A stretch of DNA of 41,165 nt from a virus: the IMG/VR virus record IMGVR_UViG_3300032299_000929, positions 1-41,165 of that record. One strand, written 5' to 3'. The notes under the pieces are model-generated. The model searched no databases and was not told where the DNA came from. It saw only the letters and a list, made by a program, of their open reading frames with translations. This document shows positions 7,166-40,832 of the stretch, piece after piece. A program made the translations under genes and the position numbers. How positions within the stretch are numbered: the first letter of the stretch is position 1; each line of letters opens with the position of its first letter.

Positions 7166-7169
7166 TTTA

Positions 7170-7709
7170 TTAATTTGTTGGGTAATAGAAATATAACGGG
7201 TCTATAATATATGTTTCTGTTTTTAATTCTGGTCGTAATCGAACCGAATAATCCATATCTTCATGATATGATATATCTGGAAATCCTACTTTAATAGCAA
7301 TTTCCCGTTTAACCGGATTTAAATGGTTTGGACATCGGTAATATGCGTTATCATCCTCCGACCACTCTTTGTATTTTAAAGAATGAATAAAAAGTTTCGG
7401 TTCTCTTCTCGGCTGAACTATAATACCGCACAATCCGATACAATCTACACCTGTTTCAATCGCTTTTAAAATGTTTGATGTATAAAATGGAGAAATATAA
7501 TCATCATCGTCGATAAAACAAACATATTCTCCCGATGCGTTGTATAATAGGTTGTTTCTTTTTGTTCCGACAGACCGTTCGCCGTTGTCGATATCTGCTA
7601 ATATTTCAACGTTTTCGTTACCTTGTAATTTTAAACATTTAACAAGGTTTTCCAGCAACTGCTTTCTTTTTTCCAAAGCGCAGATTAAAATTGATAGTTT
7701 TTTACTCAT
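7170..7709 (-). CDS. family 2-like glycosyltransferase, single domain
   Basis: A 179-residue GT-A enzyme. Features: KLSILICALEKRKQLLENL at the N-terminus, SVGTKRNNLLYNASGEYVCF then IDDDDYISPFY (the DxD region), and FPDISYHEDMDYSVRL (the ED motif). The frame continues upstream to 7742, but the ATG at 7709 overlaps the stop of the previous gene as ATGA, so it is the likely start. It is short for GT2 and close in sequence to the C-terminal domain of the protein at 5710-6987. Confidence 0.75.
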   Translation of the reverse strand: MSKKLSILICALEKRKQLLENLVKCLKLQGNENVEILADIDNGERSVGTKRNNLLYNASGEYVCFIDDDDYISPFYTSNILKAIETGVDCIGLCGIIVQPRREPKLFIHSLKYKEWSEDDNAYYRCPNHLNPVKREIAIKVGFPDISYHEDMDYSVRLRPELKTETYIIDPLYFYYPTN

Positions 7710-8260: not shown

Positions 8261-8956
8261 TTATCGCAAGAGTATAATATGTTTGGCTTCGCTTTGTTTG
8301 GATAATGCGATTGTGTTGTTCAAAGATTCCAGATAAACCGGAGTTTCCATCTTTAAAAATATCGCAAAATCTGTTAATAATTCGACGTATTTCGAATCGC
8401 TGTTGAGATTCCAAATCGAAACATACGAGTGGTCCATATCCTTTTGCTTTGGTATGGCAACACCCGAATATTCAAAATCTAAAATACGGGAATTTGGCTT
8501 TCTGAACTCTTTAACGAAACCGTCAGCGTTTTTCTTTATGACTATTTCGCGTAGCAACAAAGAATGACTGGCGATATCTTTCAAATTGGCATAAAAAAAG
8601 CCGTTGAGTTGTTTGTCTGATATAAAAAGCGTTGATCCGTCAAGATATTCATGTCGGGGATACTCTCTTTTATCCAAGCCGACAATTGTATCAGGATTTT
8701 CGGTCAACATTTTATGACACTCTTTAAGTTGGATATCACTATCTTTTCGTTCGACAACGTGCCAAGTTTTACCGCGAGCGAAACAGACATATCTTCCCAC
8801 TTGCTTAAAATCATTAGCTTCCATCAAATAATCAATCTCTACGACTTCTTCTGGGTTTTCTTCGTTGAAGAAATGGTCAGCAAACATCTTGAAATAATTT
8901 CTGACGTAGAAATTTTCATATACTCGTTCTAATACTTTGGAATCTAAGTCTTTCAT
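8261..8956 (-). CDS. hypothetical protein with tag-like N-terminus
   Basis: A 231-residue protein of unknown function. The N-terminus MKDLDSKVLERVYENFY is similar to those of the unrelated proteins at 10483 (MKDSDSLILEELYENL), 10958 (MRDKDTQLLEEAYTKI) and 28755 (MKYKDHTVLEELYDTI). The rest has no motif I recognise; it is neither a membrane protein nor a coiled coil. Overlaps the upstream glycosyltransferase as ATGA, so it is expressed in the early-type operon, unlike most tagged genes, which sit behind a TAARTA box. Confidence 0.7.
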   Translation of the reverse strand: MKDLDSKVLERVYENFYVRNYFKMFADHFFNEENPEEVVEIDYLMEANDFKQVGRYVCFARGKTWHVVERKDSDIQLKECHKMLTENPDTIVGLDKREYPRHEYLDGSTLFISDKQLNGFFYANLKDIASHSLLLREIVIKKNADGFVKEFRKPNSRILDFEYSGVAIPKQKDMDHSYVSIWNLNSDSKYVELLTDFAIFLKMETPVYLESLNNTIALSKQSEAKHIILLR

Positions 8957-10434: not shown

Positions 10435-10440
10435 GTAGAT

Positions 10441-10468
10441 ATTTTATCAAAATTTTCAGAAAAATCAA
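10441..10468 (-). promoter_or_regulatory. sigma70-like promoter of the glycosyltransferase-gene 46 operon, leaderless geometry
   Basis: On the minus strand TTGATT (10468-10463), a 16-bp spacer and TAAAAT (10446-10441), then 6 bp, then the ATG at 10434. It abuts the opposite-facing TAAATA box at 10469. Confidence 0.65.
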
Positions 10469-10474
10469 TAAATA
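10469..10474 (+). promoter_or_regulatory. late-type box TAAATA
   Basis: TAAATA then 8 bp then the ATG at 10483. It directly abuts the -35 of the divergent promoter at 10441-10468. Confidence 0.5.
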
Positions 10475-10482
10475 TTTTAAAT

Positions 10483-10914
10483 ATGAAAGATTCGGATAGT
10501 TTAATTTTGGAAGAATTATACGAAAACTTAAATATTGTTTGGGCGCGGGGTGGAGATATTAGAGAAGTTGATGGTCAATGTGGTTACGGTGTTTATTGTT
10601 TTCCGTTTGCAAACAAAGCTATGCTAAATTACTATACAAAAAATGGTGAAATTTTATACATAATACAACCAACGAGTGAAGTTGTGGACACTAGAAGACA
10701 TGTAGAAACAATCATAAAATATGCGAAGATGCAAAACATAAAATGTAACTCCACAGATTATTACAAACAACCGTTCGCGTTAAAAGCTTTTATGTTAAAC
10801 GAATATCCAAACGCTTCTGGATATATTTGCCCACATAAAGGAGAAGGTATCCCAACAGGAATACAGGCAATTTTTGATATCGATAAAATTGATACAGAAG
10901 TATATGAGATGTGA
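10483..10914 (+). CDS. tagged hypothetical protein, possible ADP-ribosyltransferase-like fold
   Basis: A 143-residue protein. N-terminus MKDSDSLILEELYENL is a member of the tag-like family in this window. The remainder shows GYGVYCFPFANKAMLNYY (about 34-51) followed by NGEILYIIQPTSEVVD, and near the C-terminus GIPTGIQAIFDIDKI. A 'GxGvYf...A..Y....G.iL.v' block plus a final 'xQaivfDxxxI' strand is the layout of ADP-ribosyltransferase-like domains in phage and toxin proteins. I do not see a clear catalytic R-S-E or H-Y-E set, so activity is uncertain. Alternative: an unrelated alpha/beta protein. A packaged ADP-ribosyltransferase would parallel T4 Alt. Confidence 0.55.
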   Translation: MKDSDSLILEELYENLNIVWARGGDIREVDGQCGYGVYCFPFANKAMLNYYTKNGEILYIIQPTSEVVDTRRHVETIIKYAKMQNIKCNSTDYYKQPFALKAFMLNEYPNASGYICPHKGEGIPTGIQAIFDIDKIDTEVYEM

Positions 10915-10917
10915 GCT

Positions 10918-10945
10918 ATTTTATCAAAATACCCAACAAAATCAA
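10918..10945 (-). promoter_or_regulatory. orphan duplicate promoter, pointing antisense
   Basis: On the minus strand TTGATT (10945-10940), 16 bp, TAAAAT (10923-10918), identical in elements and spacing to the promoter at 10441-10468. No start codon lies at the expected distance and no minus-strand gene follows, so a transcript would run antisense to the gene at 10483. Confidence 0.4.
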
Positions 10946-10951
10946 TAAATA
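10946..10951 (+). promoter_or_regulatory. late-type box TAAATA
   Basis: TAAATA then 6 bp then the ATG at 10958. It lies in the duplicated upstream segment, abutting the orphan -35 at 10940-10945. Confidence 0.5.
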
Positions 10952-10957
10952 TTTAAT

Positions 10958-11383
10958 ATGAGAGATAAAGATACCCAATTATTAGAAGAAGCCTATACAA
11001 AAATTCTTGCCAAAGAAGAATTTGATGAAGATTTGGTTAGAGGTTCGACAAATATGCCGCACGGACAAGGGTATCCAAACGTTTCAAGCGACGATAATAT
11101 GCAATTGGATGATGTTTTATCAATTGATGACACTGTTTCATATCCAGCATATGTTACGGCATACGACATAACGCGAGAATTTGGCGGTCATGAAGAGGGT
11201 GGGTGGTATTACACAAACTATGCTGTTATCGACACGTATCCCAAACAAGCAAATTCCGAAGAAGAGGTTGTAGCCATTGCGAAAAAAATGTTAAAGATAA
11301 TTGGCGATGTTGACGGAAAGCTTAGAATTTTCGCAGAAAACGAAGTCGGATCGATGGTTTCTGATAGACCGCATTACGAATAA
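10958..11383 (+). CDS. tagged hypothetical protein
   Basis: A 141-residue acidic protein. N-terminus MRDKDTQLLEEAYTKILAKE belongs to the tag-like family. The core contains VTAYDITREFGGHEEGGWYY (about 68-87), an EGGWYY pattern that I have seen in small hypothetical phage proteins but cannot tie to a function. The upstream DNA and first codons resemble those of the preceding gene, so the 5' portions of both genes look duplicated while the bodies are unrelated. It ends 7 bp before the convergent gene at 11391, with no hairpin terminator between. Confidence 0.7.
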   Translation: MRDKDTQLLEEAYTKILAKEEFDEDLVRGSTNMPHGQGYPNVSSDDNMQLDDVLSIDDTVSYPAYVTAYDITREFGGHEEGGWYYTNYAVIDTYPKQANSEEEVVAIAKKMLKIIGDVDGKLRIFAENEVGSMVSDRPHYE

Positions 11384-11390
11384 GAGTTTT

Positions 11391-11738
11391 TTATTCTTTC
11401 GGTTTAATCTTTTTGTTCCAAAAACCTGCTACTAAGATTGCTGTAAGTGTTGTAGCGATTGCGGTAAGAAACCAACCGTTCCAAACCAAAAACAAAACGA
11501 ACGCCGTATCGTAAACAAACGACATCCACGCAGGAACCGATCTTCCTTTTTTTTGAATTTTTTCAATTTCCTCGTCTGGTAAAAAGAAAGAAAGAGAAAC
11601 TAGCGAAAGGACAAACCACGTTACAAACACTAAAACATTTGCTGCTCCCATGCTTCCGTTTACTGCATACCACGCAAGCGCGGCCATTGCCGAATTTGTA
11701 GCGGTCCAATATATTGCTCTTAGTATTATATTTTTCAT
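11391..11738 (-). CDS. small integral membrane protein
   Basis: A 115-residue protein with about three to four hydrophobic segments (roughly 10-29, 33-52, 70-86 and 88-106) separated by a charged loop PDEEIEKIQKKGRS (about 54-67), ending in a Lys-rich tail NKKIKPKE. No enzymatic motif. Last gene of the minus operon from 15210. It might anchor or transport a precursor for the glycosyltransferases, but this is only context. Confidence 0.65.
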   Translation of the reverse strand: MKNIILRAIYWTATNSAMAALAWYAVNGSMGAANVLVFVTWFVLSLVSLSFFLPDEEIEKIQKKGRSVPAWMSFVYDTAFVLFLVWNGWFLTAIATTLTAILVAGFWNKKIKPKE

Positions 11739-11742
11739 ATTT

Positions 11743-12576
11743 TTAAGTTTCTCTATTGTTGTATATGTTTTTCAGAAAGTCAAGACATTCTTTTTCTGAT
11801 ATAAAAGTTTCTGGTGGTCCGTAACCGATAACCACGCTAAAATCGTTCTTCTTGATAAAGAAATCTAAAGCTTTTTGGAAATTTCTCATAAAGGTTTCGT
11901 CTCTGATAACACTATTTTGGTGATCAGGCTTGATATCTTTCAAATACAACTCTGAATCTGCTATATCACAGAACCATCGAAACGGTGAGGTATAGCCTTT
12001 TAAATATGCCTGATACGTATGGTCTACGTGTTCTAAGGCGTTGTAAAAGTTTTCATCCATCAATCCGATACCTTGTATAACGCTTTGGTGGTAGTAGCTA
12101 AACGCACCCAAAAGTTCAGGGTATAGGTTTATAACGGTATCGTCTGGATATTTAATAGATTTTTTAATGGCGGGTTCTCTATTATCATATCTCAAATTGT
12201 GATTGCCGTGCAAAGCAAAGTTAAAATGTTTGATTCCGGTGGATTTGTATGCGTCTATGTATTTTTGAAACACGGCATCGTCAGTTATGACAATATCATC
12301 TTCCATTAAAAATATATGCTCGCACCCGACACGCATCAAAAATTTTAATGCACAATTTTTAGCCTTACCTACACCAATTTTTTTATTGGTTTGGATGTAA
12401 TTGCGAGGAGTTTGGATGTAATTGCGAGGATAGTATGGTAATTCTTCACCATCGTTAATAAGAATGTGTTCAATCCCCAAATGCTCAACGGCTTTCGCCA
12501 CACTTGCCATCGATTCTTTGTAGAATTCGGGCCTATCGCATGTGATTAATCCGATTCCTATTTTATTTTTTTTCAT
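11743..12576 (-). CDS. GT2-like glycosyltransferase, paralogue of the N-terminal domain at 8953-10434
   Basis: A 277-residue protein. IGIGLITCDRPEFYKES at the N-terminus, VGKAKNCALKFLMRVGCEH, IFLMEDDIVITDDAVFQKYI (DxD region), LLGAFSYYHQSVIQGIG and MDENFYNALEHVDHTYQ line up along their length with the N-terminal domain of the protein at 8953-10434 (CEHIFLIEDDVII, FEHIDFEY). A 7-residue tandem duplication near residues 50-63 (RNYIQTP twice) comes from a perfect 21-bp DNA repeat and lies between the first Rossmann strands and the KN motif. The acceptor is unknown. Confidence 0.7.
   Translation of the reverse strand: MKKNKIGIGLITCDRPEFYKESMASVAKAVEHLGIEHILINDGEELPYYPRNYIQTPRNYIQTNKKIGVGKAKNCALKFLMRVGCEHIFLMEDDIVITDDAVFQKYIDAYKSTGIKHFNFALHGNHNLRYDNREPAIKKSIKYPDDTVINLYPELLGAFSYYHQSVIQGIGLMDENFYNALEHVDHTYQAYLKGYTSPFRWFCDIADSELYLKDIKPDHQNSVIRDETFMRNFQKALDFFIKKNDFSVVIGYGPPETFISEKECLDFLKNIYNNRET
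12389..12430. repeat. perfect 21-bp tandem duplication inside a glycosyltransferase gene
   Basis: Two identical head-to-tail copies (12389-12409 and 12410-12430) keep the reading frame and add seven residues. No mismatch between copies, so the event is recent or conserved by conversion. Confidence 0.9.
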
Positions 12577-13204
12577 CTTCTAACTTTTTAATCTTTTCAT
12601 CGATTTCTTCTAGAACCGAATCTTTGTATCTATAAAACATTCCATTGAATATGTTTTTAAGGCTATAAACAAACCTCGAAAGAAGTTCATCGACTGTTGC
12701 GCTTTCAAAAATTTCACCCTTTTTCATGTTGAACAAATAACTGTTTATCCCTGAAAAGGTATAAACAAATTGGTAGAACAAAGATCGGTTGAAAATGTGT
12801 GTATTTCTTTGATTTTTCAAATTCTCCAATTCATTTTCTAAAGTTGCTGGATGATGACCGTAAAGTGCGCCAATATTGTTATATTGAATCAAATTTGCTT
12901 CCTTTTCTCCGGTAGTTTTGTTGACGAACGGAAGTTGGGCAAAAAAGATAACAGGAATTTCCTTCTTTCGAAAGTCTTCCAATACTTTTTCGACGTATTT
13001 GTGTTGGTTTCTCTCTTTTGCGCTCAAAAGGGTGTCGATGATTTTATTTCTTTCAACATCAACCTTTTTTTGTTGTTTTACTCTGTTAGCTTTTGTTGGT
13101 AGTTTCGTTTTTTCTATCGAGTTCTGCAAAATCTCACCACTTTCAGCAAGGAGATTTTTACCATCTTCCAGCATATCTTTATATTTTTCTTCTATATTCT
13201 TCAT
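12563..13204 (-). CDS. hypothetical protein sharing an N-terminal module with the gene at 13483
   Basis: A 213-residue, Lys/Glu-rich, probably helical protein. The first 34 residues (YKDMLEDGKNLLAESGEI, then LQNSIEK) closely match the N-terminus of the 67-residue protein at 13483-13686 (YTDMVEDCKNVLSESDAI, then LQNAMKN). The central part includes VEKVLEDFRKKEIPVIFF and a segment NNIGALYGHHPATLENEL; no known domain recognised. Overlaps the downstream glycosyltransferase by 14 bp. Confidence 0.7.
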   Translation of the reverse strand: MKNIEEKYKDMLEDGKNLLAESGEILQNSIEKTKLPTKANRVKQQKKVDVERNKIIDTLLSAKERNQHKYVEKVLEDFRKKEIPVIFFAQLPFVNKTTGEKEANLIQYNNIGALYGHHPATLENELENLKNQRNTHIFNRSLFYQFVYTFSGINSYLFNMKKGEIFESATVDELLSRFVYSLKNIFNGMFYRYKDSVLEEIDEKIKKLEDEKK

Positions 13205-13215
13205 GTTTTGTTTTA

Positions 13216-13443
13216 TTATAAAATTTGTTCAATTACTCCACCAAATTTTCCACCGTCTCGATAACATTGTATGCAGAAGGCCATATATTCTCTAAATTTG
13301 TTTTCGTCTGTTTTGGAGAATTTTCTTTCTATATATTCCAAGTGTTCAGCACATTCTTGGTGATATTCTTCCAGCACAAAAGAACCGTCTGTTGGTCTTT
13401 TGGTTATTAATAACGGTTTCCATTTTTCTGTTGTTTTATTCAT
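13216..13443 (-). CDS. small hypothetical protein
   Basis: A 75-residue protein (MNKTTEKWKPLLITKRPTDG...). An in-frame ATG lies four codons earlier (13455), but the one at 13443 has the AAAAAT-ATG context seen at most minus-strand starts here. It contains ECAEHLEYIERKF and CIQCYRDGGKFGG; a CxxC is present but no second metal pair. Lies between two genes that share an N-terminal module. Function unknown. Confidence 0.55.
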   Translation of the reverse strand: MNKTTEKWKPLLITKRPTDGSFVLEEYHQECAEHLEYIERKFSKTDENKFREYMAFCIQCYRDGGKFGGVIEQIL

Positions 13444-13482
13444 ATTTTTTTCCATAATCTTTCTGCAAGCCCTCCATAAATT

Positions 13483-13686
13483 TTATTTTGTATTAAGTTC
13501 TTTACTAAAATTTTTCATCCGTTTCAGAATTTTTTCCAATTCTCCGAAAAATTCTTTATCATCGTCAGATGCGCCGTTAGCATCTTTAACGTTTTTCATC
13601 GCGTTTTGCAAAATCGCGTCACTTTCAGAAAGGACGTTTTTACAATCTTCGACCATATCTGTGTATGTTTTTATTTCTTTTTTCAT
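13483..13686 (-). CDS. small protein, N-terminal module paralogue of the gene at 12563
   Basis: A 67-residue protein. Residues 1-34 are about as similar to the N-terminus of the 213-residue protein at 12563-13204 as two diverged copies would be: shared pattern Y-x-DM-x-ED-x-KN-x-L-x-ES-x-x-ILQN. The rest (ASDDDKEFFGELEKILKRM) is charged and helical. It may be a truncated copy that stays in frame, or a stand-alone version of the module. Function unknown. Confidence 0.65.
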   Translation of the reverse strand: MKKEIKTYTDMVEDCKNVLSESDAILQNAMKNVKDANGASDDDKEFFGELEKILKRMKNFSKELNTK

Positions 13687-13691
13687 AATTT

Positions 13692-14084
13692 TTATATTCT
13701 AGGTGCTATGTTATAATATTGCACATCATCAAGAGAGGTTACACGGTTATTTTCATCAACCGTTCCTACGGATGTGGGAGTTATACAAAATGTTTTTGGG
13801 TCGCTTAGAAGTTCTTTTACCACCAAAGCGGTTGTTGTATCTAACAATTTTATATCGATGACTATTCTATCGTTAACAAGTCTAGAATTTTCAACAACTC
13901 CAACAGCATTTGTTAAATCGTTTCCAAGCGTCGAATATAAAAGAACTGGTTTTTTCTTTAGTATATTAAGATTGGTTTTGTTGACTATCTCGTTGATAAC
14001 ATCTTTGCTATAAATTCGACCATTTGCCGTTGGCACATCTGGTTGAATCAGATCGATTGTGTATACAATATCAGGATTTTCCAT
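13692..14084 (-). CDS. prohead-protease-like protein lacking the catalytic residues
   Basis: A 130-residue protein that follows the layout of the gp21-type protease at 40167: ANGRIYSKDVINEIV (about 20-34) matches NNRIYPLEEMVKEV; NDRIVIDIKLLDTTTALVVK (about 71-90) matches the strand-helix with STPMGQIVKSL; GTVDENNRVTSLDDVQYY (about 107-124) matches QLTEKNGKSMVSDFRLVAI. The position of the catalytic His (GELEHP in gp21) reads LYSTLGN, and that of the catalytic Ser (GVSSRALG) reads CITPTSVG. So the fold is probably kept and the protease activity lost. Overlaps its upstream neighbour by 14 bp, far from the head genes. Role unknown; possibly a scaffold- or substrate-binding relic. Confidence 0.6.
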   Translation of the reverse strand: MENPDIVYTIDLIQPDVPTANGRIYSKDVINEIVNKTNLNILKKKPVLLYSTLGNDLTNAVGVVENSRLVNDRIVIDIKLLDTTTALVVKELLSDPKTFCITPTSVGTVDENNRVTSLDDVQYYNIAPRI

Positions 14085-14847
14085 AATTTTTTTGTAAATC
14101 TCCCATGAAAACCATCAAATCTTCTTTGGATATTGTTTCGGTTTCTTCCATGTCGGGAATGTAATTCCATCTGTGCTTGAAATATCCATAAGAAAATCCA
14201 ACGCTTCTGTTTTCAACATCTAACGTGTCGCTGTGATCGATTCTTTCAATCTTTTCTTTTTCGTATGTTGCCACACGACCAACCGTTGTGTGAAATGGAT
14301 GTTTTGGATACATCCCGTTCTTTCTGGCCGTGTTGATGTAGTCCAATACGTCCAAATCTTTGGTGTTGACGTATCTTTCGTCGAAATATCCCAAAGTTCC
14401 CGCGACACCAGACCGAATAAACACAAAATCCGTGTTTAATTTGTTGTTAATCTCCAAACTTTGACCGCTATCGTCATCTAATATGGTTGGTGTTTCGTTG
14501 TTTCCTGTTAAAAACCAAGTTCCGAACGTTTCGGCGGTTTTTATTGTATTTTTAACAAAATCTGGATCGGTAATCGTTACGTTTGAGTTGAGCAAGAATA
14601 TATATTTGACACCCATGCTTCTAAAATGCGCCACACAATGATTTCGTAGTGCCGCCATACTAACTTGGTGTGTAATATGCTTGTTGAACTCAACATCAGA
14701 CGTTTTTATTTTCTTGTTTGATATGATGTATGATGGTGATTGGGCTGCGTCTGAACGAATTACAGATTCAATGCATCGTTTCAGTGACGCATCGCTGTAA
14801 ATGTCCAATATTCCAATTCCAACATCAGTGTTTTTTAAATCTTCCAT
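14071..14847 (-). CDS. degenerate GT2-like glycosyltransferase paralogue
   Basis: A 258-residue protein. VGIGILDIYSDASLKRCIES at the start, MAALRNHCVAHFRSMGVK and YIFLLNSNVTITDPDFV align with the two paralogues at 11743 and 8953, whose equivalents read IFLMEDDIVITDD and IFLIEDDVIIKDD. Here the ED-D metal site is replaced by N-S-N. Later LGYFDERYVNTKDLDVLDYI keeps the FDExY block but loses the (F/L)EH(I/V)D motif. I infer a fold kept without standard metal-dependent catalysis. It could act as a partner subunit. Confidence 0.6.
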   Translation of the reverse strand: MEDLKNTDVGIGILDIYSDASLKRCIESVIRSDAAQSPSYIISNKKIKTSDVEFNKHITHQVSMAALRNHCVAHFRSMGVKYIFLLNSNVTITDPDFVKNTIKTAETFGTWFLTGNNETPTILDDDSGQSLEINNKLNTDFVFIRSGVAGTLGYFDERYVNTKDLDVLDYINTARKNGMYPKHPFHTTVGRVATYEKEKIERIDHSDTLDVENRSVGFSYGYFKHRWNYIPDMEETETISKEDLMVFMGDLQKNYGKS

Positions 14848-14850
14848 ATT

Positions 14851-15210
14851 TTATAATATACTTTTAATTGCTGCGAGTTTATTGTTTGCCATCATAACAT
14901 CGCGTTCCAATTTTTCTATAGAGTGGTATGCTTCCTCAAAAATATTAATCAAAGCAAAATTATCAAAAAGCATTGGACCTTTTCTTCCACGTAATCGTGC
15001 GTCTGCCGAATATGGTGTTACATAATAAACGTTAGGGTGTTGATGTTCTTGTTCTAACATTTTTGCATGATTAAAATTTTGCGCAACTACGATAGCTGTT
15101 TGTGTTTCTGGAAGGTTTTTTATGCCTTCAAACATTACTGTCGTATGACCAGATTGCCTTGACACATCATAATAGGTCAAAAAGCTTTTTAAAACATTTT
15201 TAATATTCAC
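14851..15210 (-). CDS. P-loop-like hypothetical protein
   Basis: A 119-residue protein with a GTG start at 15210, supported by the promoter just upstream and by the absence of any near in-frame ATG. SRQSGHTTVMFEGI (about 17-30) looks like a Walker A with the GK replaced by GH, TAIVVAQNFNHAKML like the next strand, and LRGRKGPMLFDNFALINI (about 73-90) like a Walker B region. Small phage proteins with this RQSGHTT...FDN pattern are, to my knowledge, uncharacterised. Possibly nucleotide binding; no evidence of hydrolysis. First gene of its operon. Confidence 0.6.
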   Translation of the reverse strand: MNIKNVLKSFLTYYDVSRQSGHTTVMFEGIKNLPETQTAIVVAQNFNHAKMLEQEHQHPNVYYVTPYSADARLRGRKGPMLFDNFALINIFEEAYHSIEKLERDVMMANNKLAAIKSIL

Positions 15211-15217
15211 AATACCA

Positions 15218-15246
15218 ATCTTATCTTATATCTTGCGCATTGTCAA
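15218..15246 (-). promoter_or_regulatory. sigma70-like promoter, leaderless geometry
   Basis: On the minus strand TTGACA (15246-15241), a 17-bp spacer, TAAGAT (15223-15218), then 7 bp and the GTG at 15210. Drives the operon 15210-11391. Confidence 0.7.
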
Positions 15247-15250
15247 ATTT

Positions 15251-16300
15251 TTAAACGGCGTATTTTTGATAGAGTTCTCCGATATATTTTTTAATCGGCT
15301 CTTTATTTTCGGTATCCAACCCGTCAATGTATTCATCGATGATTACCGAGATGTCCACCGCTTCTGATCCATCGTTACCGTCAGAAGAAATGTCAATATC
15401 TGGCAAATCAAAGTCTGGTTTCAAGAATTTTGGCGATAGATTTTGAATTTTCGAAAGTAGCATCGCTTGGGTGTCGGGTTTTATCGGATGGTCAACAATC
15501 AACGACACGATATTGTTTGGAACCATTTCTTGCAAGTCGGAACTCTTGATTTTTTTCGATATCAATTCACTAATTTTTATTTTTTGGTGTTTTGGTGATA
15601 TTGTGTTTTCGATAAAGTCGAACGTTTCTTTTTCAAGATCGAAAACATAAATTCCGCGCTCGTCACCAACTTCCCCAAAGTTCATTTGATACGGACTACC
15701 CAAATACAAGATTTTTCCCTTGCTGTATTCTCTCAAATCTCTTTTATGAAAGTGTCCTGATATGACATATCTGGATTTTAAAAACAAGTCTGCTGATTCA
15801 AACCCATGTTCGCACAAATTGTAACCGTTCATATAAAACGATTTGATATCCATGTGTCCGAACATGATATCTGCGGTTGGCATTTCTTCCAAACTCGTTC
15901 CCCAAGGTAAAACAGAAATAGTTTTATCCATTGTTGTTTTAAACACTCTGGGTGTATCGACAATCTCTACATTTTTCCAACCGTTGAGTAATCCCAACGA
16001 ATGGACATCACTATCATATTTTTTGTAACAGTCGTGGTTGCCAACCGGAACAACCAGTTGAAATTCTTTAAAATATTCAAAGAATTTTTGCGCAACGCCT
16101 AGAGTTCTTACAGATATTTCAGAACGGTTGTCAAAAACATCTCCCAATATGGCAATCTCGGTTATCCCCAAAGCTTCGAATTTTTTCGAAGACCATTCCG
16201 CAAAATCCAAAGCGGTTTCATGCCACAACTCACTGTCTTGGCGAACACCGATATGTAAATCGGATAACATTCCGATCTTTTTGCTTTTAAATGTATCCAT
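15251..16300 (-). CDS. 47: gp47-like recombination nuclease (SbcD/Mre11 metallophosphoesterase)
   Basis: A 349-residue calcineurin-like phosphoesterase, nuclease partner of gp46. Motifs in order: SDLHIG (13-18), GDVFD (53-57), GNHD (87-90), GHMD (148-151) and SGHFHKRD (181-188), giving the full two-metal site. The C-terminal region (about 290-349) is acidic and probably the gp46-binding part. Length matches T4 gp47 (339). Its start overlaps the stop of the upstream gene as TAATG. Last gene of the operon uvsY-uvsW-55-orf-47. Confidence 0.95.
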   Translation of the reverse strand: MDTFKSKKIGMLSDLHIGVRQDSELWHETALDFAEWSSKKFEALGITEIAILGDVFDNRSEISVRTLGVAQKFFEYFKEFQLVVPVGNHDCYKKYDSDVHSLGLLNGWKNVEIVDTPRVFKTTMDKTISVLPWGTSLEEMPTADIMFGHMDIKSFYMNGYNLCEHGFESADLFLKSRYVISGHFHKRDLREYSKGKILYLGSPYQMNFGEVGDERGIYVFDLEKETFDFIENTISPKHQKIKISELISKKIKSSDLQEMVPNNIVSLIVDHPIKPDTQAMLLSKIQNLSPKFLKPDFDLPDIDISSDGNDGSEAVDISVIIDEYIDGLDTENKEPIKKYIGELYQKYAV

Positions 16301-16662
16301 TATTCCGAAATTAAAATTTCACCATTGCATATTAACGTTTTTCGGTGCAAATCAAAATCTAATTCTACCAGTATTCGACAACCGCATGTTGAAAAATGTC
16401 CACATGTCGCGGTTTTTTCTTCAAACCGTATTTTACTTGGTGTAATATCACAATACATCGGATGTTGTTGAAAAATATCAATAATATCTACTCCTGCATG
16501 AAATTTAAATTGTGATTTGCCTACATCATCGATTGCGTCAAATAATAAAGATGTTATTCTGTTGTTACGACTGTATAACAATGGGTTTGCCGCTACATCA
16601 TAACAGTTTTCGCCACCGTATATCAAACGGTTGTAAGACATGTAATAATCGCTTTTTTTCAT
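16300..16662 (-). CDS. hypothetical protein between genes 55 and 47
   Basis: A 120-residue protein. The frame is open further upstream, but the ATG at 16662 follows the stop of gene 55 with one base between (TAATATG), so it is the likely start. Contains NRLIYGGENCYDVAANPLLY and a Cys/His cluster TCGHFSTCGCRILVEL (about 85-100; C-x-H-x3-C-x-C) that could hold a metal. The family is not recognised. Position in the recombination/transcription operon suggests a role in nucleic-acid processes, no more. Confidence 0.7.
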   Translation of the reverse strand: MKKSDYYMSYNRLIYGGENCYDVAANPLLYSRNNRITSLLFDAIDDVGKSQFKFHAGVDIIDIFQQHPMYCDITPSKIRFEEKTATCGHFSTCGCRILVELDFDLHRKTLICNGEILISE

Positions 16663-16663
16663 A

Positions 16664-17344
16664 TTAATTTTCTGGTATAATTCTAACATTTCTGTTCTTT
16701 GTGATTGTATTATAGTTGTCGGCAAACATCAAGAGTTCATCACGATATTTTTCGTGAGTTTCTTGCGTATGCTTTTCTTTTTTGATCCGACAGATAAACG
16801 AATTGAAAGCAATTCGGGTAAAATACGAAAACGGATTGCTCCCTTTGTCGTGCTGGTATTTTTTCCCAATCAAAGCTTTCATCATTTTGACAACTGCATC
16901 ACCGATCATATCATCTTTGTAACTGTAGTTGATGAAGTTTGGACTAAAGCTTAATTTGTTTGCAATTTTTTCCACCATCAAGGCTAATTCGTCTGACATT
17001 ACTCCGGTGTTGTAATATTTTATGATTTCATCATCAAACTCTTTGGGCTGTATATAAAATTTTGCTTTGTCGGGCTTTTTAATCTTATATTTTCTCGCAG
17101 CCTTAACAGGTTTTTCCTCTTCGTCAACAATATCTTCAAGTGCTTCCTCGTCATCATCGAGTTCTTCATCTTCATCTTCGTCAACATCTTCGTCAGAGTC
17201 TTCATCTTTTATTAATGATGAAAGAATGTGATCTTCTTCTGGATGATCGATATCATACAAGACAATCTCCTTCTCAACCTCATGAATTGTTTCTTCATCG
17301 TCGGTTATCAGGTCTTCGATTTTTATTCTTCTTTTTCTTTTCAT
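16664..17344 (-). CDS. 55: gp55-like late-transcription sigma factor
   Basis: A 226-residue protein. The region about 120-200 matches T4 gp55 (185 aa): ANKLSFSPNFINYSYKDDMI, then KYQHDKGSNPFSYFTRIAF, then NSFICRIKKEKHTQE, equivalent to the sigma region-2 segment that contacts the late -10 TATAAATA. Two differences: an acidic extension at the N-terminus (Asp/Glu run about 45-78), and a C-terminus ending ITKNRNVRIIPEN, without the hydrophobic clamp-binding tail (SLDFLYE type) of T4 gp55. The many TAARTA boxes in this window are its plausible targets. ATGA overlap with uvsW. Confidence 0.85.
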   Translation of the reverse strand: MKRKRRIKIEDLITDDEETIHEVEKEIVLYDIDHPEEDHILSSLIKDEDSDEDVDEDEDEELDDDEEALEDIVDEEEKPVKAARKYKIKKPDKAKFYIQPKEFDDEIIKYYNTGVMSDELALMVEKIANKLSFSPNFINYSYKDDMIGDAVVKMMKALIGKKYQHDKGSNPFSYFTRIAFNSFICRIKKEKHTQETHEKYRDELLMFADNYNTITKNRNVRIIPEN

Positions 17345-18765
17345 AAATTTCTTTCTACGTATGGGTAGTTTTCGGCGGTATACAATTCTTTTCTCTTTTC
17401 CTTGTGAATTGCTCCGTAGTAAGTGTTATCCGAGATATCGAAAATTTTTGCGCTTTTCTTTGTCGGATGTTTGCGCAACGATCTACCAATACTTTGAATG
17501 ATTTTGATTTTAGCTTTACCCGCGCTGGCAAAAATGATATTGTGCAAGTTTGGGATGTTAATACCTGTGGAAAATATCTTGCTAACAGAAATAACTATCG
17601 CATCGGTGGTATTTTCCATCAAATTTTTAATTTTTTCACGGTCTTCGACTTCGGTTTCACCTTGAATGAAAAATATTGGGCGGTTGGGTGCTTTATGTGT
17701 TAAATTTTTCAACAAAGCTTCTCCGTTTATCAAACGATCCACCATGATTACAGTATTTCCGTCGAGTTTTGACGCCAAATTAGAAATAATGTTGTTGCGG
17801 TTGGGATTTGTTATCAAATATTTCAATTCCCTCATATATTTCAAGGCTGGTGTTTTTTTATCGCCCGAAAACGTTTTCCCTTTGTGATCGATGTTTAAAA
17901 TATAGATTTTAAAATCAGATACATGCTTTTCATTTTTCAATTCTTCGATTTTTTTCTCGTATAACACCTTTCCGAACTTGCCGATGATGTTCCATTGATC
18001 AATTTTTTCAGACGGCATCGTTCCGGTTAATCCGAATCGGTATGGCGTGTTAATAAATTTGAATACTTTGTTTAAAACGTTCGCTTTTTTATAAACGTGA
18101 ACTTCATCTCCGATAAAAATATCAACATCAGCCAAAACTGACAAGTCTGTGTTCTTCCCTGTTAAATTTTGGGTTCCCGCAACAATAATTTTTGCCGTGT
18201 GGTCCAATTTATTGTCTCCCGACCACTTGGTAATGCTGGTTAACCCGTATTCTTCGAAATCTTTTGATGTTTGCTCAACTAATTGTAGCGTTGGAACGGT
18301 TATTAACACCTTTGCATCGGGTTTTCCTATCGCAGTTCGAATATTTTCGATCAAACCAGCAGTTAAAAGTGTTTTTCCACCACCCGTTCCCACCAACACA
18401 ACACCGTTTCCTGCTTTTACACAGTTTTCTATCGCGTCTTCTTGGTAATCTCGGTATGGAAGGGCTAAATGGACAGAAAGTTGAAATTCTGGGCGTTTAA
18501 ACGAATTTAAATACTGTTTTAAAGCATCCGAAAGCTCATAAGCAAAGGCATACTCTTTTAAAACGTCCAAAACTGCATCTAATAAACCAATATCAAACCT
18601 ACCGCTAGGAGTAATTGCGTATAGTCTCGCGGGAATAAACTTTTTTTTAGAAATATAAGCTGGATTTGGGACCGAAAAAGAATCCCGAATGATTTCCAAC
18701 TCGTTCGCATCTCCAAAAAATTGTAAAAGGCTTCTCTTTTTACCTGAAAAGTCAATTTTTATCAT
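17341..18765 (-). CDS. uvsW: UvsW-like recombination helicase (SF2)
   Basis: A 474-residue SF2 helicase; in T4 UvsW (503 aa) unwinds R-loops and branched DNA and shifts replication from origins to recombination. Motifs: LPYRDYQEDAIE (Q-motif region, about 102-113), VGTGGGKTLL (Walker A, about 125-134), IGDEVH (motif II, about 218-223), FGLTGTM (motif III), TGINIPNLHNIIFAS (motif V) and QSIGRSLRKHP (motif VI). The N-terminal about 100 residues correspond to the UvsW substrate-binding domain. Overlaps uvsY and gene 55 as ATGA on both sides. Confidence 0.92.
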   Translation of the reverse strand: MIKIDFSGKKRSLLQFFGDANELEIIRDSFSVPNPAYISKKKFIPARLYAITPSGRFDIGLLDAVLDVLKEYAFAYELSDALKQYLNSFKRPEFQLSVHLALPYRDYQEDAIENCVKAGNGVVLVGTGGGKTLLTAGLIENIRTAIGKPDAKVLITVPTLQLVEQTSKDFEEYGLTSITKWSGDNKLDHTAKIIVAGTQNLTGKNTDLSVLADVDIFIGDEVHVYKKANVLNKVFKFINTPYRFGLTGTMPSEKIDQWNIIGKFGKVLYEKKIEELKNEKHVSDFKIYILNIDHKGKTFSGDKKTPALKYMRELKYLITNPNRNNIISNLASKLDGNTVIMVDRLINGEALLKNLTHKAPNRPIFFIQGETEVEDREKIKNLMENTTDAIVISVSKIFSTGINIPNLHNIIFASAGKAKIKIIQSIGRSLRKHPTKKSAKIFDISDNTYYGAIHKEKRKELYTAENYPYVERNL

Positions 18766-19382: not shown

Positions 19383-21047
19383 ATGTCAAACAAATTTAAC
19401 AGTTTTTTTAAGCGCATAACAGAAAGTCGCATCGAAGTTCCCGATAATCCAATGTATTCTGCGGCGGTTAAGGTATTAAATCGGATCGAAAGCGAATTAT
19501 CAGAAAAGGCTTATATTGTTGGTGGGTGTGTTCGTGATATCATCATGGGCAAAGAGCCAAAAGATGTGGATATCGCATCATCAGCCGATCCTGAACAAAT
19601 ATCTCAAATTTTTAAAACGCATGACATCGGAAAATCCAAAGATTTCGGAATTGTCGTGGTTCAACAAGACGGATTCAGTTTTGAAGTCGCTCAATTCAGG
19701 GAAGATGGAGAATATACTGATAATAGAAGACCTGATAGCGTAAAAGCCGTTAAATCGTTTGAGAAAGACGCTATGCGTAGAGATTTTACGATCAATGCGT
19801 TGGGAATCGACAAAGACGGTGAAATTATAGACTATGTTGGCGGGTTAGACGATTTAAAAAACAAAATAATCAAAGCGGTTGGTGATCCAAAGAAAAGATT
19901 CAAAGAAGATGCTTTGAGAATACTAAGATTGTTGCGATTTGCTGCTAAAACAGGTTTTGATGTGGATGAAAACACTTTAACTAGCGCAACTGAACTTTTA
20001 GACTCGTTACAAACCTTATCAGTAGAGAGAATTCGTGATGAGTTTTTCAAATCGGCGGAAACTGGCGAATCTTTAGCCCGATTCATCGAAAAATTAGACG
20101 AATTGGGAATCCTAGAAAGATTGATACCAGAATTTCACAAAATGAAAGGGTTGAAGCATAATCCAAAGCACCATCCAGAGGGTGGACCATACGAACATAC
20201 TTTATCAGCCTTACGTGCTTCAAAATCGACAAACCCGTTAACAAATTTGGCTGTATTGTTTCACGATTTGGGCAAAACAACCACATTAGGTTATAAAAAC
20301 GACCAACCAACTTATTATGGTCACGAAGCGGCGGGTGTTCCGATATTTAACGGGATAGCTGCACGTTTGAAGTTCTCCAACGATGATAAAGAGGCTATCA
20401 ACTATGCAATAGAGAACCATATGCGCGGTCACAACATCGATAAGATGAACGATAAGAAAATTTTGCAATTACGACACAACAAACATTGGGATTTGCTCAA
20501 AGATGTTATATATTCCGACGAAGCATCCCGATTACACGTATTTGAACCTGAAAAATTCGAAACCAAGATGGGTAAAGTCGAAGATGTGTTGAAAAAGTTT
20601 GAAAACAAACCAGTAAACGAATTTGAAAAACAGATGGGAACGATAATTAATGGTAAAATGATCATGGAACTCTTGCCGAACGTAAAAGGCGAAGAAATTG
20701 GTCGCATTAAAAATGCCGTCAGAGATTGGGTGATCGAAATGGGTATGAAAGTTACACCAGAACAAGTAAAAGAAAAAATCAAAGCTGTAGGAACGATGAA
20801 AGAAAGTTCTTTCAGCAAAAAAGCTGATGAATATTTGGAATACCTTGAGGAAAATTCTGCGGCGGGTGCGATGAGCGTTTTTGGTGACGTTTCGGCAACA
20901 GCAACACAATTTTCCGGTGATCACTACGCACCAAACGATGCAAGAGTTCCGAAAATCTTAGGAAAGGTTCAGAGACGAACATTTCCCGAATTAACAACCG
21001 CCAAAAAGAAAACAAAGAAAAAACGTGGCAAACAAATCAAAAAATAA
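19383..21047 (+). CDS. cca: CCA-adding enzyme / tRNA nucleotidyltransferase with HD domain and extra tails
   Basis: A 554-residue protein. Nucleotidyltransferase head: AYIVGGCVRDIIMGKEPKDV then DIA (about 42-64; GG-x-VRD and DVD metal site), RRDFTINALGID (about 133-144), EDALRILRLLRFAAKTGF (neck). HD domain: HTLSALRASK and LAVLFHDLGKTT (about 276-305). Enzymes of this class repair or add the 3' CCA of tRNAs; some are poly(A) polymerases. Additions outside the family: a short N-terminal segment FNSFFKRITESRIEVP of the type seen on other tagged proteins here, and a C-terminal tail of about 70 residues with DHYAPNDARVPKILGKVQRR and a terminal Lys/Arg run. No tRNA gene was seen in the window. Confidence 0.9.
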   Translation: MSNKFNSFFKRITESRIEVPDNPMYSAAVKVLNRIESELSEKAYIVGGCVRDIIMGKEPKDVDIASSADPEQISQIFKTHDIGKSKDFGIVVVQQDGFSFEVAQFREDGEYTDNRRPDSVKAVKSFEKDAMRRDFTINALGIDKDGEIIDYVGGLDDLKNKIIKAVGDPKKRFKEDALRILRLLRFAAKTGFDVDENTLTSATELLDSLQTLSVERIRDEFFKSAETGESLARFIEKLDELGILERLIPEFHKMKGLKHNPKHHPEGGPYEHTLSALRASKSTNPLTNLAVLFHDLGKTTTLGYKNDQPTYYGHEAAGVPIFNGIAARLKFSNDDKEAINYAIENHMRGHNIDKMNDKKILQLRHNKHWDLLKDVIYSDEASRLHVFEPEKFETKMGKVEDVLKKFENKPVNEFEKQMGTIINGKMIMELLPNVKGEEIGRIKNAVRDWVIEMGMKVTPEQVKEKIKAVGTMKESSFSKKADEYLEYLEENSAAGAMSVFGDVSATATQFSGDHYAPNDARVPKILGKVQRRTFPELTTAKKKTKKKRGKQIKK

Positions 21048-27810: not shown

Positions 27811-28758
27811 GTGGAGTTGTCTGAAAGCTATATTTTAAACGCTGTTTATACCTATTCGGGTAAACCTACGTTCAACAAATACGAAGGAACATATAATTGC
27901 GGGTGTCCGATTTGTCACGAAGGCAAATCTTGGGGAAAAAAGAAGCGATTATATTACTATCCAAAAACTAAAAGTTTTTATTGTTTCAACTGCAACCGTT
28001 CATGGTCTGCAAAAAGTTGGATTCATAACGTTTCGGGTTTGTCTTATGCAGAAATGCAAGCGGGTGACAGCGTAAGAGACGTTTCCAAAACAATTTCCAG
28101 CGGAAACTCTGCTAAAATTGTCGAACAATCAAACCTCCCACACGATTCGATTAGTTTGTTGTCGGAAAGTCAGCAAAAATATTATAGAAACAATATTCAC
28201 TTTTCAAGAGCTTTGGAATATGTCAAAAAAAGACGCTTGGATGTTGCCGTGAATCGAGTAGACAATTTTTTTATATCTGTAAATGACAAGTATCACAAAA
28301 ATCGATTGATATTACCATTCTATAACACAAAAGGGGATGTAATTTTTTACCAAACCAGAAGTTTGGATGGTAGTGAACCGAAATACGTTGGAAAATACGG
28401 TGGAGACAAATCCGTTTTCAACATCGATAAAATCGATCCTAATTTTGAGTATATCTTTTTGTTTGAAGGTCCAATCGATGCCATGTTTATCCGAAACGGT
28501 GTCGCGTTGGCAGGATTAAAGCTAACAGAGCTACAAGAAAAACAACTCCAACTCTTTCCTTTCCATAAAAAAATATGGGTTATTGACAATACAGCCGTTT
28601 CGAAGGACGAAGAAACCAAAAAGACTGTTTTAAGATTGCTGAACGATTCCCAAAGCGTTTATCGGTGGAACAACCAATACAAGGATTTCAACGAATGGTG
28701 TGTTGAAGAAGAATTAAACGAGATACCGACTGACGAAGTTTTAAAAAACTTGTATTAG
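27811..28758 (+). CDS. 61: gp61-like DNA primase
   Basis: A 315-residue primase. Zinc-binding domain: CGCPICHEGKSW (C30, C32, C35) and FYCFNCNRSW (C58, C61). TOPRIM-type core: YIFLFEGPIDAMFIRNGVAL (about 213-232, Glu and Gly of motif 4) and KIWVIDN (about 253-259, the D motif), followed by YKDFNEWC (DxN-type end). The size is near T4 gp61 (342). The start is GTG with no in-frame ATG nearby. No helicase (gp41) gene is adjacent in this window. Confidence 0.88.
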   Translation: MELSESYILNAVYTYSGKPTFNKYEGTYNCGCPICHEGKSWGKKKRLYYYPKTKSFYCFNCNRSWSAKSWIHNVSGLSYAEMQAGDSVRDVSKTISSGNSAKIVEQSNLPHDSISLLSESQQKYYRNNIHFSRALEYVKKRRLDVAVNRVDNFFISVNDKYHKNRLILPFYNTKGDVIFYQTRSLDGSEPKYVGKYGGDKSVFNIDKIDPNFEYIFLFEGPIDAMFIRNGVALAGLKLTELQEKQLQLFPFHKKIWVIDNTAVSKDEETKKTVLRLLNDSQSVYRWNNQYKDFNEWCVEEELNEIPTDEVLKNLY

Positions 28759-29153
28759 TTCGGATAAGCGAGGATTTCGTAGACGGGATCGCCTTGCTCG
28801 TCTGTGCGCAACAGTTCCCAATTGAAAGATATTCGGGAGTTGACAATTTCTGGGTGTTCTTCGAACGGTTGGGTAGCGTCTGAGTATTTTCTGTAACCCA
28901 AAAGGCGGGAACCCTTTTCACCCAAAAGAATGTCACCAGTAACCATATTCAATTCATAACCGACTTCTTGTAAAGCCGCGCTCAATCTGGCAATACCTTT
29001 GGATACATTACCAAATCTACCGTTTCCGTCTAAACCGTGCTTTTTTAAAACATCGAATATTTTAGACTTTTCAGACTTTTTGATACGATAGCCTAAATTT
29101 TCAGCTATGGTATCATACAGTTCCTCTAGAACGGTATGATCTTTGTATTTCAT
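28755..29153 (-). CDS. tagged hypothetical protein
   Basis: A 132-residue protein. N-terminus MKYKDHTVLEELYDTIAENL matches the tag family closely. The body includes GYRIKKSEKSKIFDVLKKHG and IARLSAALQEVGYELNMVTG; mixed alpha/beta, no recognised family. Starts one base before the upstream gene's end and overlaps the convergent primase end by 4 bp. Confidence 0.7.
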   Translation of the reverse strand: MKYKDHTVLEELYDTIAENLGYRIKKSEKSKIFDVLKKHGLDGNGRFGNVSKGIARLSAALQEVGYELNMVTGDILLGEKGSRLLGYRKYSDATQPFEEHPEIVNSRISFNWELLRTDEQGDPVYEILAYPN

Positions 29154-38799: not shown

Positions 38800-39255
38800 G
38801 TGAAAAAGTATAGTCGAAGCACCGGATTCAAACAAGGTATATATCGTTGCAATAACCCAGAAAAATACAAAGGGTCTTATCCGATAGTATACCGTTCTGG
38901 ATTAGAATTGAAGTCTATGCGTTGGTTGGATTTCAATAAAAATGTTTTAACATGGGGTAGTGAAAGCGTTGTCATACCCTATCAAGGAGTTGATGGTAAA
39001 TTACACAGATATTTTGTGGATTTAGTTTGCGAAATGGTTAGAAAAGACGGAAATCGAGAAAAATATCTCATCGAAGTTAAACCCGAAAGCCAAACAACCC
39101 CACCTATTGACACAGGTAGAAAAAGCGCAAAAACACTATTATACGAATCCTATAGATATGCTACAAATCGAGCAAAATGGGCAGCAGCGACAAAATGGGC
39201 TGAAAGCAAATCGATGAAATTCATAATTTTAACCGATAAACATCTAAATATTTAA
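38800..39255 (+). CDS. 4: gp4-like head completion protein (TnsA/PD-(D/E)XK nuclease fold)
   Basis: A 151-residue protein with a GTG start 3 bp after the previous stop. NNPEKYKGSYPIVYRSGLEL (18-37), KSMRWLDFNKNVLTWGSESV, VIPYQGVDGKLHRYFVDLV and YLIEVKPESQTTPP match gp4/gp50 head completion proteins of T4-type phages (150 aa). Active-site candidates E36, D74, E92 and K94. These proteins act on the DNA end when the head is sealed. Confidence 0.85.
   Translation: MKKYSRSTGFKQGIYRCNNPEKYKGSYPIVYRSGLELKSMRWLDFNKNVLTWGSESVVIPYQGVDGKLHRYFVDLVCEMVRKDGNREKYLIEVKPESQTTPPIDTGRKSAKTLLYESYRYATNRAKWAAATKWAESKSMKFIILTDKHLNI
39245..39250 (+). promoter_or_regulatory. late-type box TAAATA
   Basis: TAAATA then 6 bp then the ATG at 39257; it lies inside the last codons of the gp4-like gene. 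Confidence 0.5.
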
Positions 39256-39256
39256 A

Positions 39257-40123
39257 ATGGACCTTTCTCACAAATATTCAATGCTAAAAGAAGGTGTGTT
39301 TGCGGTTCCGAGACATGTTTGGTCGGATGTATTTGATTTTGTTTTGGAATCTATAAAAACAATAAAGTCTGAAAACAAAAATTTCTACAGAAGATCGACT
39401 ATAAAGCCACAAACCTTTGATTTAGACTTTAGCGGAACATCGTTTGAACGCTTGAATGTTATGAAACCAAAAATAAAGGTTTTCATATTAAACAAACCCA
39501 AAGATTATAACTCTGCTTACTTTTGGTCGTTTGATCAAGATTTGAAAGAAAATACAATCGATGATCATGGAAACATATACATAAATGCAGCAGGACCAGC
39601 AGAAAGAATTTTGGTGTTAAACGTCGAACACGAATTATTGCACTACGTCCAATACCTCATAAGAGAATATAGAGAAGACAACAACCTCGTCAATTCTGAT
39701 CATAATATGGGAGGAATGCCGCCACAAAAGAAAATTCCAAAGGATATATCTCTCAGTGGTTATAAAAAATCAGGTAAGAAAACAAAAAGAGTAAAACACC
39801 ACACCAGACCAATTGAATATTACACAAATCTGAACACAATATTACGTGATACTCAATACAAATATTTTACAGCTTTAAAGATTCATCGAAAAGAAGACAA
39901 TACAGAAAACCGAAAAGCGTTTTTTGTAAATACGCTCAAACGCTCAAATGAAAGAAGTGATAAAAACAGCCGAACCATAAGAGTTCTGGGCGATATAAAA
40001 CAATTTGACTCGAAGTTATATCAACTGTATTTGAAGCTCTTATACAAAGGGTTTGTCAACGACGAAACCAAGATTGAGCTAGAAACCGTTGAGGACGAAA
40101 TAAATAAAGTCTACGATCTATAA
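39257..40123 (+). CDS. putative zincin metalloprotease in the head gene block
   Basis: A 288-residue protein. VEHELLHYVQYLI (about 123-135) holds an HExxH zinc motif (H125, E126, H129). About 60 residues later HHTRPIEYYTNLNTIL (about 181-196) offers a third ligand, E187, in a 'RPxE' context. YINAAGPAERILVLNVEHE gives the strand that normally precedes the active helix. The N-terminus MDLSHKYSMLKEGVFAVP resembles the tag family. No standard T4 gene corresponds to it, since T4 uses only gp21. Substrate unknown; catalysis not proven. Confidence 0.6.
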   Translation: MDLSHKYSMLKEGVFAVPRHVWSDVFDFVLESIKTIKSENKNFYRRSTIKPQTFDLDFSGTSFERLNVMKPKIKVFILNKPKDYNSAYFWSFDQDLKENTIDDHGNIYINAAGPAERILVLNVEHELLHYVQYLIREYREDNNLVNSDHNMGGMPPQKKIPKDISLSGYKKSGKKTKRVKHHTRPIEYYTNLNTILRDTQYKYFTALKIHRKEDNTENRKAFFVNTLKRSNERSDKNSRTIRVLGDIKQFDSKLYQLYLKLLYKGFVNDETKIELETVEDEINKVYDL

Positions 40124-40166: not shown

Positions 40167-40832
40167 ATGGAACCATACAAACTTATTGTAGAATCACCGA
40201 ATTATGACATTAAATGCATAGTCGAAAAGCAAAACCGCAACGCAAACCCGACTCTACACATCCAAGGTCCGTTTTTAATGGCCAACGAAGCCAACCGAAA
40301 CAACAGAATCTACCCTCTCGAAGAGATGGTAAAAGAAGTTACCCGTTATAGTGACGAAATGATCAAAGAAAACCGCGCAACGGGTGAATTGGAGCATCCA
40401 AACACACCAACGGTTAATTTGGAAAGAGCCTGTCACGTAGTTACCGAGTTAAAACAAAACGGTAACATATTCGAAGGCAAATCTAAGATTTTATCAACAC
40501 CAATGGGCCAGATTGTTAAATCTTTGATATCCGATGGTGTCAAATTGGGTGTTTCTTCTCGCGCATTGGGTCAATTAACCGAAAAAAACGGTAAATCAAT
40601 GGTTTCCGATTTTCGATTGGTCGCAATCGACGTTGTAGCTGATCCAAGTGTTCCAAGTGCCTTCGTAAACGGTATCTTGGAATCGAAAAAGTGGATATTG
40701 GGCGAATCTGGTGCGTTCGAACCAATTTATGAAGATTTTGAGAAGAAAATTTCCAAACTTCCTAAAAAAGCCCAACAAGATTTCTTAAAAGAACAAGTAA
40801 TCAATTTTATTAATGCACTCAAAAGTGTATAA
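40167..40832 (+). CDS. 21: gp21-like prohead core protease
   Basis: A 221-residue protein, matching T4 gp21 (212 aa). NEANRNNRIYPLEEMVKEV (about 40-58), ATGELEHPNTPTVNLERACH (71-90, catalytic H77), LGVSSRALGQL (127-137, catalytic Ser at 130 or 131) and VVADPS (156-161, D159). The enzyme cleaves scaffold, capsid and internal proteins in the prohead after L/I-x-E sites. The N-terminus MEPYKLIVESPNYDIK is itself tag-like, as expected for a protease that enters the prohead and is cut there. Confidence 0.92.
   Translation: MEPYKLIVESPNYDIKCIVEKQNRNANPTLHIQGPFLMANEANRNNRIYPLEEMVKEVTRYSDEMIKENRATGELEHPNTPTVNLERACHVVTELKQNGNIFEGKSKILSTPMGQIVKSLISDGVKLGVSSRALGQLTEKNGKSMVSDFRLVAIDVVADPSVPSAFVNGILESKKWILGESGAFEPIYEDFEKKISKLPKKAQQDFLKEQVINFINALKSV

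Follow-up and report, generated by a model that had tools for sequence, protein, structure and literature searches.

A probable tagged zinc metallopeptidase gene between the head closure and prohead protease genes of a T4-like phage, and its possible role as head cargo

The locus and its candidate zinc-binding motif

The DNA analysed here (the window) is the whole of a 41,165-base virus record. Portal and head genes lie at its right end, all on the plus strand, in the order portal (PHROG 213), head-tail adaptor (PHROG 211), head closure (PHROG 218), metallopeptidase ORF and S77 prohead protease. The ORF lies exactly where an earlier sequence-only reading of this DNA had placed it, at 39257-40123 between gene 4 and gene 21 on the plus strand, and begins with an ATG. 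This initiation codon is one base past the stop of the upstream gene, and 43 bases separate the end of the ORF from the protease gene downstream. The features discussed below are as follows (a slash in a sequence marks a predicted cleavage point throughout).

38800-39255, plus strand: gene-4-like head closure protein, the upstream neighbour (PHROG 218, E 2.1e-46; Pfam TnsA-like nuclease, 3e-17).
39257-40123, plus strand: probable tagged zinc metallopeptidase, 288 aa, calculated pI 9.3 (ORF with ATG; direct homolog L346).
39257-39292, plus strand: first 12 residues of the protein, MDLSHKYSMLKE, which would form a capsid-targeting propeptide with an LxE prohead-protease site at its end (from LxE[AGS] and box enrichment; the corresponding stretch of the L327 model, residues 1-11, is disordered).
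39284-39310, plus strand: N-box LKEGVFAVP, residues 10-18, aligned with LNEGLIQIP, LNEGVITVP and LAESKIQIP of relatives.
39629-39652, plus strand: HELLHYVQ, residues 125-132, with predicted zinc ligands H125 and H129 and general base E126 (invariant in alignment A6 and in L346).
39758-39805, plus strand: basic loop GYKKSGKKTKRVKHHT between HELLHYVQ and RPIEYYTNL, longer in L346 (from the sequence).
39806-39832, plus strand: RPIEYYTNL, residues 184-192, with predicted third zinc ligand E187 (column invariant in alignments A5/A6; all nine residues identical in L346).
40167-40832, plus strand: gp21-like S77 prohead protease, the predicted cutter of the tag (PHROG 207 head maturation protease, 2.8e-62; Pfam Peptidase_S77, 9.9e-30).

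Elsewhere in the window, the minus strand of the interval 3103-16725 carries several genes that look glycosyltransferase-like or sugar-related, as judged from their translations by eye.

An HExxH motif by itself is weak evidence. Among the 2,586 distinct ORFs that the window and related contigs contain, 27 have it, against 13.1 in shuffled sequences, and it appeared in 339 of 20,000 shuffles of the 288-aa protein. The fuller arrangement singled out in the sequence-only reading, HELLHYVQ with a later RPxE, is present and exceeds chance in the same kind of test: HExxHxxQ followed 30-90 residues on by PxE arose in none of the 20,000 shuffles, which rules out a chance motif, and was observed in 2 of the 2,586 ORFs versus 0.0 expected. 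No Pfam match above the gathering score was obtained for the protein, only unrelated families far under the cut-offs; SprT, M48 and other named Pfam peptidases are thereby ruled out.

Used alone as a query, the 288-aa protein retrieved nothing from phages, viral contigs, genome contigs, PDB sequences or NCBIfam, the few weak matches being unrelated, and no PHROG, Pfam or NCBIfam family fits it. Relatives were also missed by exact-peptide searches. A direct homolog came from a final scan with an alignment headed by the window protein (E 4e-22). The same homologous protein occurs on a 248-kb contig (L346) and an 80-kb contig (L347), each of which also holds a gp21 relative with 46% identity. By blastp, L346 is 26% identical to the window protein over 344 columns (E 3e-24). 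HELLHY, QYLI and the full RPIEYYTNL are identical in the two proteins (HELLHYIQYLI in L346). The N-terminal box is altered in the homolog, where it reads LLE/TISLAK and lacks the proline. A scan of genome contigs with the window protein and L346 together found nothing. Lack of conservation in relatives had been named at the outset as a finding that would speak against the metalloprotease reading; the motif is retained in a protein of only 26% identity and is very probably functional.

Distribution of the gene and its wider family

Eighty related loci were fetched by means of gp21, and 44 of them contained gp4-like and gp21 genes in order. The gap between these genes measured at most 101 nt in 36 of the 44 junctions and 306-902 nt in eight. 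No HExxH ORF was found in any of the 44, the eight wider gaps included, and a metallopeptidase search of 50 related records, many of them short, gave no match. The metallopeptidase gene is thus accessory. Two of the wide junctions hold short, Lys/Arg-rich, tag-like proteins (MNKFDILANNIIEE in L009 and MKFDLLVESLLQE in L011; 69 and 93 aa). The presence of these cargo-like proteins at the gap identifies the gp4-gp21 junction as a site where cargo-like genes come and go.

These data bear on the first role suggested for the enzyme, a second zinc-dependent processing step in head assembly. A maturation protease of this kind would complement gp21 by cutting head proteins during assembly. It would be in keeping with the same-strand position directly between head genes, one base past the gp4-like gene, and with a tag that would put the enzyme in the prohead. 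However, the gene is absent from 44/44 junctions, 36 of which offer 101 nt or less, the 50 related records yielded no match, and about 20 kb separate gp21 from the homolog in the 248-kb contig. Since close relatives should keep an essential processing step, the absence of the gene argues against a required function in head assembly and for packaged cargo. A conserved head-assembly gene is ruled out on these grounds, and a maturation protease appears very unlikely.

Scanning viral contigs for HEL-hydrophobic-H-Y-hydrophobic-Q returned at least 80 loci, so that the family census given here is a lower bound. The scan uncovered a group of proteins combining T4-like starts (MKTFQKFALNE/GLIQIPPKIYK) with HELMHYVQ. 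Similar proteins, mostly stand-alone, are encoded by viral contigs L327-L338 and by the named phages XacN1, RAS14/CM1 and SCTP-2. They belong to an uncharacterised HExxHxxQ family found in large phages of the T4 superfamily, to which the window protein bears a more distant resemblance than to L346. Pattern scans for HELxHxxQ with RP[IV]E picked out 24 stretches, one of which (L091) is a family member, the others being chance matches or members of different families. Serratia phage BF carries two adjoining longer family proteins (gp319 and gp320), filed as virion structural proteins; gp319 matches 31 of 50,697 phage records. An 11-row alignment of the family is collinear through the N-box, HExxHxxQ, the E[FY] motif and the C-terminus, with E11, P78, H156, E157, L158, H160, Q163 and E192 invariant (L327 numbering).

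The jumbo-phage virion proteins of PHROG 18596/22033 (BF gp319 and gp320; CBB_321 and CBB_322) resemble the window protein in their LxE...hydrophobic-x-V-P N-box, HELxHxxQ and later xE[FY]. They differ in length (528-847 aa) and in having E[FY]xxQ in place of EYYTNL, and their pairwise match with the window protein is not significant. Proteins of PHROG 34216/38692 (XacN1 ORF117, RAS14, Salicola phage SCTP-2 gp56) are stand-alone and of similar length, with HExxHxxQ and an N-box (LNEGVITVP in SCTP-2 versus LKEGVFAVP), whereas the window protein has no PHROG match at E<=1.

In an hmmsearch with a 16-member profile, the window protein scored E 0.0012, three other HELxHYxQ ORFs scoring slightly better. 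An hhalign comparison with the family gave E 2.7e-5 and a probability of 75, a level also reached by one shuffle in 60 when the HExxH block was left intact. Among the 206 targets of this profile comparison, the protein ranked above all 199 non-family sequences and below six family sequences. Masking the HExxH block removes the signal. Because most of the score comes from that block, and a shuffle and other ORFs reach it, these scores make the family link only suggestive; the N-terminal box at the same place provides separate support. We consider it probable that the window protein belongs to the wider HExxHxxQ family.

Several relatives have unusual features. In L337 (4927-6402) another region precedes the metallopeptidase domain in one fused protein, with an LEE/G box where the two meet, which suggests that the prohead protease could separate them. 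The open frames of L334, L335 and L336 have no ATG ahead of the conserved box, and a GTG is found in all three. Another HExxH candidate, in the relative L154, shows no homology to the window protein.

A single-sequence model of the window protein was not usable (pLDDT 33.1). The AlphaFold model of L327, built from the 11-row alignment, reached a pLDDT of 83.1 and a pTM of 0.82. Its residues 1-11 are disordered (under 50), ending at the predicted cut LNE11/G12. An N-terminal helix and four strands precede the helix (136-168) that contains HExxH (156-160). Zincin-like peptidases have the same order of elements, with the HExxH helix followed by a helix bearing a conserved Glu (PMC5512222). As far as the order of elements goes, the structural doubt raised in the sequence-only reading was not borne out, the model of this relative displaying the zincin order. 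The Glu predicted as third ligand would lie on the next helix, the E187 column being invariant in the 11 rows and E192 falling within helix 190-207 of the L327 model. Foldseek found no match to this model in the PDB at E<=0.001, which we do not take to indicate a new fold. The best VIA-align hit, 2ejq_A, had a Z of 5.0 (81 aligned, rmsd 3.5), under the informative level of the tool; metallopeptidases recur at Z 2.5-3.8, mixed with unrelated folds. In BFVD, the best row was a 275-aa protein (E 6.3e-9) and the fifth a BF structural protein (E 1.3e-4).

The N-terminal box and packaging

The T4 protease gp21 cleaves after L/I-x-E, and ten residues are enough for head targeting (PMC9026906). A predicted cleavage site of the T4 internal-protein type, LKE12/G13, is found at the start of the window protein. 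Of 1,586 genes in the window and related contigs, 90 (5.7%) have LxE[AGS] at residues 6-20, compared with 38/1,575, 33/1,324 and 25/1,103 at internal offsets (2.3-2.5%); with D, K, Q or N replacing E, the N-terminal excess was about 1.5-fold at most. Taken alone, the 248-kb phage that carries the homolog showed weak enrichment (17/348, versus 9/346, 9/261 and 10/196 internally, or 2.6-5.1%). The impression of a tag-like start (MLKE12/G13) thus held up, both in the site itself and in the N-terminal enrichment of LxE[AGS].

The longer box [LIM].E[AGS].[IVLF].[ILVA]P was found four times at N-termini in 1,934 genes and twice in 451,977 internal amino acids, a fold enrichment that is flattering, as the pattern was partly drawn after seeing the window protein and its relatives. 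With a slightly looser box, the LxE form gave 4 N-terminal and 7 internal occurrences and the D/K/Q/N control 1 and 35. The four N-terminal carriers are the window protein, the product of window positions 19383-21047 and two proteins of the 248-kb phage. An LxE...P box is present in 18 of the 19 listed family proteins, near the start or, in the three longest, at residue 60-61; L346 is the exception.

These counts can be set against the possibility that the enzyme is a cytoplasmic phage protease, never packaged, whose LxE start is a coincidence. With LxE[AGS] in about 2.4% of internal windows as opposed to 5.7% of N-termini, a single site could arise by chance, and members of PHROG 38692 and 34216 are without assigned function. 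On the other hand, the full box is about 21-fold enriched at N-termini, on the partly fitted pattern, and it stands at the same place in relatives that were recovered via the HExxH motif, not via the box. A coincidental start therefore seems unlikely.

Virion data exist for one distant relative. CBB_322, the CBB counterpart of BF gp320, bears LDEASGVGILKVP, with a predicted cut after LDE at residue 62, and HELQHAMQ, and adjoins CBB_321, the gp319 counterpart. Mass spectrometry of virions detected it through 30 unique peptides, the highest peptide count of the table, at a coverage of 43.57%; CBB_321, the closer-sized CBB paralog, is absent from that virion table (PMC5259590, Table 4). The BF label "structural protein" was rejected as deriving from mass spectrometry on BF, since the BF paper reports none; the evidence comes from CBB. 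Mass spectrometry has also been carried out on Erwinia phages (PMC7760394). An S77 protease gene was present in all seven family-carrying records over 200 kb and in 0 of 12 shorter fragments. This co-occurrence is weak support, because large phages of this kind generally have such a gene anyway. A portal search on the 12 fragments gave no match anywhere and was hence uninformative. Of the initial idea of a metalloprotease acting in the context of the head, the conserved motif stands, and the tag box and, distantly, CBB_322 speak for packaging; the assembly step is not supported.

A proposed injected enzyme

We propose, with a probability of roughly 0.6, that the 39257-40123 product is a tag-trimmed, zincin-type zinc metallopeptidase, carried as head cargo and most likely ejected into the host to cleave a host or defence protein. 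H125, H129 and E187 would be the zinc ligands and E126 the base; zinc binding and proteolysis are predictions from these residues. The first 12 residues would serve the same purpose as the capsid-targeting sequences on T4 internal proteins and bring the protein into the prohead core, where the gp21-type protease of the phage would cut the tag after LKE12. The trimmed, basic enzyme would remain in the head with the DNA and most likely be ejected at infection, then cleaving its host or defence target. We infer tag cleavage, packaging, ejection and target from the comparisons made here. Packaged cargo is favoured over a head-processing protease and an injected effector fits better; ejection into the host is probable.

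The T4 internal proteins IPI-III and Alt are alike in having a short N-terminal targeting peptide that gp21 cuts after L/I-x-E and in being ejected with the DNA (PMC9026906). They differ in that none is described as a metallopeptidase in the parts of the source drawn on here; Alt is an ADP-ribosyltransferase. The zincin-like MPTase domains of polyvalent proteins (Iyer et al. 2017; PMC5512222) likewise have an HExxH helix followed by a conserved-Glu helix and are delivered with phage or plasmid DNA; they differ in lying within multidomain proteins, the likeness being one of element order. Autoprocessing of packaged multidomain proteins has been proposed for these domains (PMC5512222). By analogy, the enzyme could process itself or further packaged proteins, either within the full head or while they are being ejected, a notion with which the fusion in L337 and its similar LEE/G box agree. 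The window protein, however, is short, stands alone and lacks a partner domain or known target, and action of this sort is quite unlikely.

Another possibility is a packaged, zincin-shaped internal protein that binds DNA or serves as filler, in the manner of the small T4 internal proteins, which are basic. The calculated pI of 9.3 and the basic loop would suit such a function. The catalytic residues are nevertheless kept across very divergent members, some of which are acidic (SCTP-2, pI 4.9), and we regard this role as very improbable.

If the proposed injected enzyme is confirmed, the cargo of T4-like phages would extend to a new kind, a protease marked by a tag and packaged in the head; to our knowledge, few cargo enzymes of T4 are known. 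No published description of tagged metalloproteases of T4-like phages was found in the open-access literature. The finding would give a function to jumbo-phage "virion structural proteins" seen by mass spectrometry yet unexplained, and would offer a signature by which further injected enzymes could be recognised in sequences. A related gene, Sharanji gp291, with a predicted cut after LQE at residue 8, belongs to a phage whose recorded host is E. coli K-12 MG1655. More tentatively, T4-superfamily phages might use a common, modular tag for delivery, LxE/(G/A/S)-x-hydrophobic-x-hydrophobic-Pro, the first half of which is cut by the prohead protease. Placed on unrelated enzymes, it would define an exchangeable first-strike set, including proteases that destroy a host defence protein before phage gene expression. 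Examples within the window would be the metallopeptidase and a CCA-adding/poly(A)-polymerase-like nucleotidyltransferase.

The latter (19383-21047, plus strand) combines a CCA-adding/poly(A)-polymerase-like region (Pfam PolyA_pol, 1.6e-37) with an HD domain and starts MSNKFNSFFKRITE/SRIEVP, the same box. The start MKTFSEFINE/SAIDLP is found on a nucleotidyltransferase-like protein (L357:6220) encoded by the 248-kb phage. A different start, M(K/R)xKDxxLLEEAY, ending in an LxE site, is shared by the products of window positions 10483-10914 and 10958-11383 (plus strand) and 28755-29153 and 8261-8956 (minus strand). It recurs in L107, L154 and L155 on proteins that are otherwise different, and possibly represents a second type of head-packing tag. 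Finally, the adjoining genes L161:15772-17097 and 17115-17954 have T4-like tags (MKKFISFVVEKK and MKSFRNFLLEK) and no Pfam match; the first contains HEWAHLW, and the second has a start, YHATGLDVIARILKTGEI, that we take to resemble the ADP-ribosyltransferase type.
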